From NCBI GenBank assembly GCA_009937255.1, contig JAACCT010000037.1, forward strand, positions 1 through 64,000: 64,000 bases of DNA, read 5' to 3'. Positions 28,099 to 30,130 of the stretch are shown here, in pieces (position 1 is the first letter of the stretch; the number at the start of each line of letters is the position of its first letter). The DNA comes from Dehalococcoidales bacterium. Its GTDB lineage: Bacteria; Chloroflexota; Dehalococcoidia; Lucifugimonadales; Lucifugimonadaceae. Both the position numbers and the translations under genes were made by a program. The notes under the pieces are model-generated. The model was not told the DNA's origin, did no database searches, and worked only from the letters and a program-made list of their open reading frames with translations.

Positions 28099-28419
28099 TT
28101 AATCAATACCTTCCCAAAATTCTACCCAACTTCCAGGACCATCTGATTTATCAACTAATTCGTTAAGTTTTGAGTATGATTCAGATTTTGGAATTTGGTT
28201 ACCTTTTCTGTAAGGAGAATCAATTATATCGGCTGTCCACTGCATATATACTCTGTTTAATTCATCTTTAGGACTAGGAAGAGTTCCTCCATTAAAATAA
28301 ATCATTGATTTGGACCTTGGCCCAGCACTAGAATATTCAGTAGCAATTTCTTTGACTAATTCAGCTGCTTTCCTAGCTTGACCATTCTGTACTTTCCATA
28401 CTCTTCTAATATGATACAT
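28099..28419 (-). CDS. Conserved hypothetical protein, 106 aa
   Basis: I do not recognise a family. The protein starts MYHIRRVWKVQNGQARKAAELVKEIA, a beta strand followed by an amphipathic helix, then another strand set, and ends PGSWVEFWEGID. The strand-helix-strand rhythm and size recall dimeric alpha/beta-barrel (ABM-like) proteins, but no signature proves it. No signal peptide or membrane segment. The ATG has AAAGAGG upstream. It lies 51 nt downstream of the Nudix gene on the same strand. Confidence 0.7.
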   Translation of the reverse strand: MYHIRRVWKVQNGQARKAAELVKEIATEYSSAGPRSKSMIYFNGGTLPSPKDELNRVYMQWTADIIDSPYRKGNQIPKSESYSKLNELVDKSDGPGSWVEFWEGID

Positions 28420-28470: not shown

Positions 28471-28944
28471 TCAATTTGAATTATTAACTATTTTTATAGC
28501 ATCAACACCTAACTTAATTACATCATCAGGTGGAGATTTTAATAATCCATTTTTATTAATAAGTTTTTTTTCAGATAAGAGTTCTTGAGTTGTAACCCAA
28601 ATCCAATCATCAGACAGAGATGTTTTTCCTGAAGTTGGAATAGCAAAATAAATAAAATCTATGTGTTCATGGTTTCCAATTTTTTTATCAAATACTGATT
28701 CAATCAATATTGCTTCTGGAACAGGGATGTTTGTTAAGTGATCAAAAGAATATCTAGATTTTGTTAAAATTTCAACTTCGATACCCATTTCTTCCTTAAC
28801 TTCTCTTAATCCAGCTTCTACAGGAGTTTCATTTTTATCTATGTGACCACCAGCTGGCAACCACTCTTCAACCTTATTATGCCAATGCAAAGCAATTTTA
28901 CTTTTATATATTACAAATATTGTAGCTGTGAAATGTTTTATCAT
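28471..28944 (-). CDS. Nudix hydrolase
   Basis: 157 aa. The Nudix box is complete: GGHIDKNETPVEAGLREVKEEMG (residues about 32-54), fitting GX5EX7REUXEEXGU, with metal-binding glutamates in REVKEE. Substrate cannot be read from the sequence; nucleotide or isoprenoid diphosphates are possible. Upstream lies the unexplained two-hairpin element, which would be in its 5' leader if the gene is transcribed from beyond 29.07 kb. Confidence 0.9.
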   Translation of the reverse strand: MIKHFTATIFVIYKSKIALHWHNKVEEWLPAGGHIDKNETPVEAGLREVKEEMGIEVEILTKSRYSFDHLTNIPVPEAILIESVFDKKIGNHEHIDFIYFAIPTSGKTSLSDDWIWVTTQELLSEKKLINKNGLLKSPPDDVIKLGVDAIKIVNNSN

Positions 28945-28970
28945 TTTAAAATCTTAAGGCCTCTTAATTA

Positions 28971-29027
28971 ACTAAGGGTGAAATTATCGGGTAAGGAGTT
29001 TCCTTACCGGATAATTTCACCCTTAGT
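28971..29027. repeat. 27-bp near-perfect hairpin
   Basis: Arms 28971-28997 and 29001-29027 match at 26 of 27 positions around a 3-nt centre (GTT). Neither flank carries a T-run, so it is not an ordinary terminator. Candidate small structured RNA, cruciform, or remnant of a hairpin-type mobile repeat. Confidence 0.85.
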
Positions 29028-29028
29028 G

Positions 29029-29070
29029 GAGGTATCTTAACCTTCTGGGCGCCCTAAGTTAGGACACCTC
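29029..29070. repeat. Second long imperfect hairpin centred on GGGCGCCC
   Basis: Outer pairs GAGGT/ACCTC continue through a stem of about 15 positions with two wobble pairs and one mismatch, around the palindrome GGGCGCCC. It starts 1 nt after the first hairpin, so the two probably act together. The GAGG of its left arm could alternatively pair with CCTC at 28960-28963 beyond hairpin 1. Confidence 0.75.
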
Positions 29071-29275
29071 GCTTATCATTAATATCCAATTTAAAATATC
29101 CTCCTTTCATTTAACTAGTTTATATTTCATGATGTTTTTCAACATCTAATTAAATGATAAAGCGAAAATAGAATAAATTCAATATATTTTTAATTCAATA
29201 AATTACCTAGATAATTATTTTATAGGAAATTTATATGTAGTATCTTTAAAATAATCAAACATATAAATATACACA

Positions 29276-30130
29276 GTGAACATAGAAGAATTTAATTTAA
29301 ATATACCTTTAGCAAGTTATAAAAATAGCCATTTTATAAGTATTTTAAGACCATGGATAAATGTAGGGAATGTTGGTCATAATGCAATAAGCAGATTAGT
29401 AAAAATTTTCGATTTAGAAGAGATCGGTAGGCTAAAAAAGCCTAGTAAGTATTATGATATGACTAGATATAGACCTGAAATTTTAGAAGAAAATGGGGAA
29501 AGAAAAGTTAGAGTTCCAAATACTGTAATATTTGGAAATAAAATTCCATCAGATAGAAATATTTTCCTTTTATATATGCTTGAACCTCATAATTATGCTG
29601 AAGATTACAATGACGCATTTATTGATTTAATAAAAAAACTAAATGGACAACGTTATACATCTATAGGAGGTATGTTTGACTCTGTTCCACACACAAGACC
29701 TCTACCAGTAACAGGCAGTTACAAAGGATGGATACCTCCTAGTCCTTTAGACCAAACATTAAAGAGAAAATCAAATTATGTCGGACCTACTAGTATGACT
29801 TCTCAACTTTCTCAGATATTAAGTAAAGAATTTTCAATAGAAACTTTATCTTTAATGGTACATATACCACTTTATATTAAGCTTGAAGACGATTTTTTAG
29901 CAACATATCGCTTATTAGAAACTTTATCAAAAATTTATAATTATCCAATAGATTTACCGGAAAGAGAAAAAGGTGAAAAACAATATAAAGAAATTCATAA
30001 AAATTTAGATGGAAATAGCCAAGTTACAGATTTAATAAAACAATTTGAGGCAAATGAAAAATTAAATAATGATGAATTAGGCCTATCTCCTAAAATTGAA
30101 GATTTCCTGAAAGATTTAGAAGATAATTAG
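29276..30130 (+). CDS. PAC2 family protein
   Basis: 284 aa. The PAC2 (proteasome-assembly-chaperone-like, ATP-grasp-associated) pattern is seen as FISILRPWINVGNVGHNAISRLV at the start, then GQRYTSIGGMFDSVPHTRPLPVTGSYKG, the family's G-x-D-x-x-P-H-T-R-P motif, and later VHIPLYIKLEDDFLATYRLLETLSKI. Function of bacterial members is poorly known. GTG start; no strong ribosome site seen. It converges with the aminopeptidase gene, overlapping it by 4 nt. Confidence 0.85.
   Translation: MNIEEFNLNIPLASYKNSHFISILRPWINVGNVGHNAISRLVKIFDLEEIGRLKKPSKYYDMTRYRPEILEENGERKVRVPNTVIFGNKIPSDRNIFLLYMLEPHNYAEDYNDAFIDLIKKLNGQRYTSIGGMFDSVPHTRPLPVTGSYKGWIPPSPLDQTLKRKSNYVGPTSMTSQLSQILSKEFSIETLSLMVHIPLYIKLEDDFLATYRLLETLSKIYNYPIDLPEREKGEKQYKEIHKNLDGNSQVTDLIKQFEANEKLNNDELGLSPKIEDFLKDLEDN

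Follow-up and report, generated by a model that had tools for sequence, protein, structure and literature searches.

Leader-peptide attenuators include those of the trp/his type and translational attenuators such as ermC. Regulatory minigenes consist of two codons, act in cis inside an operon, and have no hairpin directed against a Shine-Dalgarno (SD) sequence (PMC8708949). The Downstream-peptide motif and Yfr6 are cyanobacterial, with an aptamer-like motif placed before open reading frames (ORFs) of 17 to 100 residues (PMC2864571), and dual-function small RNAs form a further class (PMC5521070).

Layout of the locus

The window, that is, the whole stretch of 64,000 nucleotides that was analyzed, contains two hairpins between a Nudix gene (PF00293; 157 amino acids [aa]; minus strand, positions 28471 to 28944, start at 28944) and a PAC2 gene (plus strand, start at 29276). 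Both belong to an element that spans about 175 nt of the minus strand (approximately positions 29147 to 28971), and the 126 bases noted in the preliminary description are its 3' half. Read toward the Nudix gene, which lies downstream, the order is a promoter-like box, a 5' hairpin (P1), the SD sequence AAAGGAGG, an 11-codon ORF with a TTG start (mini-ORF), and the hairpins P2 and P3. The region has a predicted folding energy of -62.1 kcal/mol, versus -32.9 ± 3.9 kcal/mol in 200 shuffled sequences (z = -7.4), none of which folded equally well. Downstream of the Nudix gene, a 106-aa protein (MYHIRRVWKV..; positions 28099 to 28419, minus strand) is without a Pfam or NCBIfam match.

The promoter-like box (TTGAAT-17 nt-TATCAT; positions 29154 to 29182, on the minus strand like all features of the element) keeps its TTGAA and TAT.AT blocks in the genus alignment. 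Because a scan for sigma-70-like promoters gave one match, versus 3.3 expected in shuffled sequences, support for this candidate promoter comes from conservation and place and not from the scan. P1 (GATGTT gaaa AACATC; 29131 to 29146) stays a hairpin while the sequences within the genus differ. The SD sequence (29100 to 29107) is complementary to the 3' end of 16S rRNA, and the corresponding tail, GGCTGGATCACCTCCTT, is present in the window's genome. The mini-ORF (29054 to 29089) has the codons TTG GAT ATT AAT GAT AAG CGA GGT GTC CTA ACT TAG (LDINDKRGVLT*), and its length and place are kept in the genus. An ATG in ATGAAAGGAGG was rejected as the ORF start, since its spacing from the ORF differs by one base among genus members and its frame is thus not kept. 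P2 (GAGGTGTCCTAAC / GTTAAGATACCTC around GGGCGCCC; 29029 to 29070), recognized by folding and covariation, has in its 3' arm an internal anti-SD, ACCTCC (29028 to 29033), recognized from sequence and folds; in predicted folds, ACCTCC plus positions 29034 to 29040 can pair with the SD region (29091 to 29104) instead of with P2. P3 (28971 to 29027), with 27 pairs, one C·C mismatch, and a 3-nt loop, stands where other families have an intrinsic terminator and ends 26 nt ahead of the Nudix ATG.

Several claims of the preliminary description bear on this layout. Its 27-bp stem with one mismatch and a 3-nt center is P3, whose arms (28971 to 28997 and 29001 to 29027, 27 nt each) are 96% complementary, and its second long stem was located as P2; the higher G+C content was also borne out, with 0.40 to 0.41 at the hairpins versus 0.15 to 0.29 in most surrounding windows. 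In line with the reported absence of T-runs, no terminator-like site was found here: hairpin P3 is there, with no T-run behind it. The statement that the region holds no ORF has to be withdrawn, as the minus strand carries the 11-codon ORF under a strong SD; the ORF list in use had a length limit above 11 codons, and the mini-ORF fell below it. A leader of the PAC2 gene, one of the roles suggested, is untenable because the element is read from the other strand. The switch proposed for the Nudix SD, with CCTC competing for GAGG, is not conserved (genomes G002 and G005 are without such a GAGG), and the competition that is conserved concerns the SD of the mini-ORF, not that of the Nudix gene.

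Distribution of the element

The element is syntenic in all nine genomes of the window's genus; the search of related genomes that had been recommended located it at the same place in 8 of the 8 other genomes and located no second copy in the rest of its own genome, where the second match is the palindrome matching itself. In genome G008, it occurs at two contig ends, most likely as one copy split by assembly. Among 250 genomes of the order, covariance models detect the element in about 102, from 20 families, nearly always in one copy; matches in the order were inspected by eye, and many genomes in the set are incomplete. The first model (R1, built on SD, ORF, and P2) accounts for 47 genomes of the window's family (f1), and its weak matches beyond f1 are relatives with the promoter-like box, P1, AGAAAGGAGG or a close sequence, a TTG mini-ORF (for example, LDSSTWRCSR*), P2, and usually a terminator. 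The second model (R2) adds about 55 genomes in 19 further families, with matches in family f37 left out. The f37 matches (L200, L201, and L214), like L159 and L164, have no SD/ORF/P2 pattern and were taken as false. Four f1 genera (g5, g6, g8, and g10) gave no convincing copy of the RNA, though most of their genomes keep the Nudix gene. Outside the order, two samples drawn from the class and phylum (393 and 400 genomes) yielded no convincing match; the matches in G930 and G845 were read and judged unconvincing. The match in G930 (L219; same class, other order) has GGAGG..TTGAATAGTAATACATGA and a hairpin and is too weak for a relative.

A search of Rfam 15 at gathering and at lenient thresholds gave only sub-threshold chance matches of long stems. 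Together with the covariation of P1 and P2, this favors the new structured RNA that the preliminary description had considered. The element is not the tmRNA, which would have a tRNA-like domain and match RF00023 and which is a separate gene in this genome (G000:C6:31992-32345). Nothing relevant was found in the literature searched on SAR202 small RNAs. The occurrence at one place per genome speaks against a REP/MITE-type repeat, and the earlier suggestion of a hairpin-type repeat likewise fails on the single copy. Ordinary hairpins, whether a pair of terminators or a repeat element, would account for the T-run that follows P3 in relatives, but they are scarcely credible for an element that is single copy, has no T-run here, and is conserved across the order together with promoter, SD, ORF, and P2.

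Helices P1, P2, and P3 across relatives

Comparison among relatives shows a family marked by helices P1 and P2, a kept reading frame, and, in other families, a terminator. Within f1, 95.4% of P2 cells are paired (37 to 53% in slid controls), with two-sided changes in 7 of 12 pairs. The corresponding value in other families is 95.2%, with far lower slid controls and covariation in 6 of 14 pairs, and the outer stem of P1 is paired there in 92.1% of cells and covaries in 5 of 6 pairs. P3 pairing is kept in the genus despite two-sided changes (for example, GGTAAGG/CCTTACC versus GATAGAG/CTCTATC; AAGGGTG/CACCCTT versus AAGAGTG/CACTCTT).

The central C·C mismatch of P3 is common to the window's genus (g1) and genus g12 despite different sequences, and its flanks (ATC C GGT and ACC C GAT) appear reversed between the two. 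In the P1 loop of other families (alignment A4), a TGAAAGCTT-like stretch is kept across families and is perhaps a binding site. In genera g12 and g9 (L045-L082), promoter and SD are separated by a longer structured 5' part (CGGTCTTGACC..GGCCGTGGGCAG..), located about 100 nt upstream of the SD, that differs markedly from the short hairpin in the window's genus and has no Rfam match. A pseudoknot considered for this part in g12 was dropped, as it is not kept in all members.

Neighboring genes

In f1 genera with the element, a Nudix ortholog lies downstream in the same direction. Outside f1 (19 other families, with gene calls from a simple longest-ORF method), different genes lie downstream, mostly in convergent orientation; they encode, for instance, a phosphotriesterase family protein, CinA, or an aminotransferase, and in a few cases a codirectional ABC ATPase or Na/Ca exchanger. 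A VOC/glyoxalase-like gene (PF00903, about 125 aa) is often divergent upstream of the RNA in most other families (L165-L216) and is present in only 6 of 31 sampled f1 genomes. A terminator stands at the place of P3 in 35 to 39 of 42 relatives outside f1; in 35 of the 42, the hairpin is followed by a T-run of four or more. Judged by these surroundings, the element outside f1 looks like a stand-alone, independent RNA gene.

Since the downstream gene outside f1 varies and is usually convergent, the Nudix leader suggested in the preliminary description cannot be the general function of the element, and the gene neighborhoods of other families rule it out as such. For the window's genus, that suggestion retains some force: because P3 has no T-run, read-through into the Nudix gene is likely in the window, so that the RNA is probably continuous with the Nudix mRNA and the element may also be a Nudix 5' leader. 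A cis-acting leader, with translation of the mini-ORF controlling the downstream Nudix gene by attenuation or translational coupling, could hold in the window's genus alongside our main reading. Such a leader would suit the codirectional Nudix gene of f1, the missing T-run, and the short distance in the genus, where P3 ends 9 to 30 nt before a Nudix start that has little or no SD. It agrees poorly with the differing, mostly convergent neighbor behind a terminator in 19 other families, with the long and variable distance to the Nudix gene in genera g12 and g11, and with a mini-ORF that contains no stretch of identical amino acids; as the explanation of the element, we consider it rather doubtful.

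The mini-ORF

Every copy read in the genus has an ORF of 11 codons with TAG, TAA, or TGA as the stop, all three of which also occur within f1, and the length across the element family is 9 to 12 codons. Outside f1, the distance from start to stop, anchored by nucleotide motifs, is 27, 30, or 33 nt in 40 of 40 unique sequences, while the spacer from SD to start varies from 7 to 12 in the same sequences; this multiple-of-three argument is only moderate because few separate indel events are involved. The f1 relatives upstream of the orthologous Nudix gene encode, among others, M[SC]STKRG[VA]L[RHL]* (g12), MSDSTNGG[SCD]LL* (g9), and MNSSTGGVLL* (one g11 genome), and a [KR]RG or RRC core recurs in the peptides. 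Substitutions in the mini-ORF outside f1 show no third-position excess and hence no classical coding signature. The reading frame seems to be kept, and the peptide much less so.

Were the basic peptide of 9 to 12 residues itself the acting product of a micropeptide gene, the strong SD, the conserved ORF length, and the recurrent core would be readily accounted for. However, third-position changes are not in excess, and the peptide differs among families and even genera (MSDSTNGGSLL versus MSSTKRGVLR), which leaves this reading very improbable. It is also unlikely, though less extremely so, that the element is a noncoding, trans-acting RNA with an incidental ORF, in which the SD- and anti-SD-like stretches serve for pairing to 16S rRNA or to other mRNAs. 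The joint preservation of start, length, and stop and the interchange of stop codons in f1 speak against this, even if the stand-alone gene structure outside f1, the weak peptide conservation, and an SD that is strongly complementary to the 16S tail would all agree with it.

Proposed mechanism

In our main reading, the RNA would be read from its own promoter on the minus strand, and its strong, often extended SD would bind ribosomes. A ribosome would read the 9- to 12-codon mini-ORF, which ends within hairpin P2. The 3' arm of P2 would act as an internal anti-SD with competing partners, namely, the SD, the mini-ORF codons, and, in most families, a repeat within the loop of P2. A ribosome melting P2 would free the anti-SD arm, which would then close the SD, so that loading would limit itself, and the position of the ribosome would count more than the peptide. 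Transcription, translation, switching, and an effect on other genes are what we infer for this RNA.

In constrained ensemble folds with rough ribosome footprints, the predicted partner of the anti-SD arm depends on where the ribosome sits: the leader codons for a ribosome at the start (group means, 0.82 to 0.97), the SD for one at the stop (0.59 to 0.98), and, outside f1, the P2 loop for one on the ORF (0.61). This modeling suggests that the arm returns to the SD once the ribosome reaches the stop, as in a self-closing mini-mRNA. Counting against a switch, the fold model predicts the SD to be closed already in the free window RNA (0.88).

Our best explanation, taken as a whole, is that the element represents a previously undescribed small RNA gene family of marine SAR202-type bacteria, with its own minus-strand promoter, a ribosome-bound mini-ORF, and self-limiting loading by way of the anti-SD; we put the chances of this combined explanation at about even. 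Going further, we would tentatively suggest an order-wide RNA gene whose job is the translation of about 10 codons, ribosome gated, self-closing, and trans-acting, with the sensing of ribosome supply as one example of a role, and with selection on frame length and ribosome place and not on the peptide; this is possible rather than probable. If true, genomes across a large part of an order of ocean bacteria would each keep a single copy of a new RNA family, overlooked so far because gene callers pass over so short an ORF and Rfam has no model for it. With the models and sequence anchors from this analysis, existing marine metatranscriptomes can be searched.

Comparison with known systems

The element resembles leader-peptide attenuators in what appears to be a short ORF under an SD of its own; the alternative hairpins across it, which in the folding model depend on the ribosome, would be a further parallel. 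In contrast to them, its ORF contains no stretch of identical amino acids, its anti-SD arm targets the ORF's own SD, and a regulated gene in the same transcript, possible in f1, is mostly missing in the other families. With regulatory minigenes (PMC8708949), it shares a very short ORF in a regulatory role, which for the element is a proposed one. The Downstream-peptide motif and Yfr6 (PMC2864571) likewise combine a structured RNA with a short conserved ORF and draw support from multiple-of-three indels, whereas the element is not cyanobacterial, has a shorter ORF, and matches no Rfam family. Closest in gene structure to dual-function small RNAs (PMC5521070) would be the copies in other families, with a small transcript, a promoter and terminator of their own, and an ORF that looks translated, while the window is without the terminator T-run; the element differs from that class in its ORF of about 10 codons, its weakly kept peptide, and its internal anti-SD. 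The element joins attenuator-type parts within an apparent stand-alone gene, so that whether being translated can be the function of a small RNA becomes directly testable.
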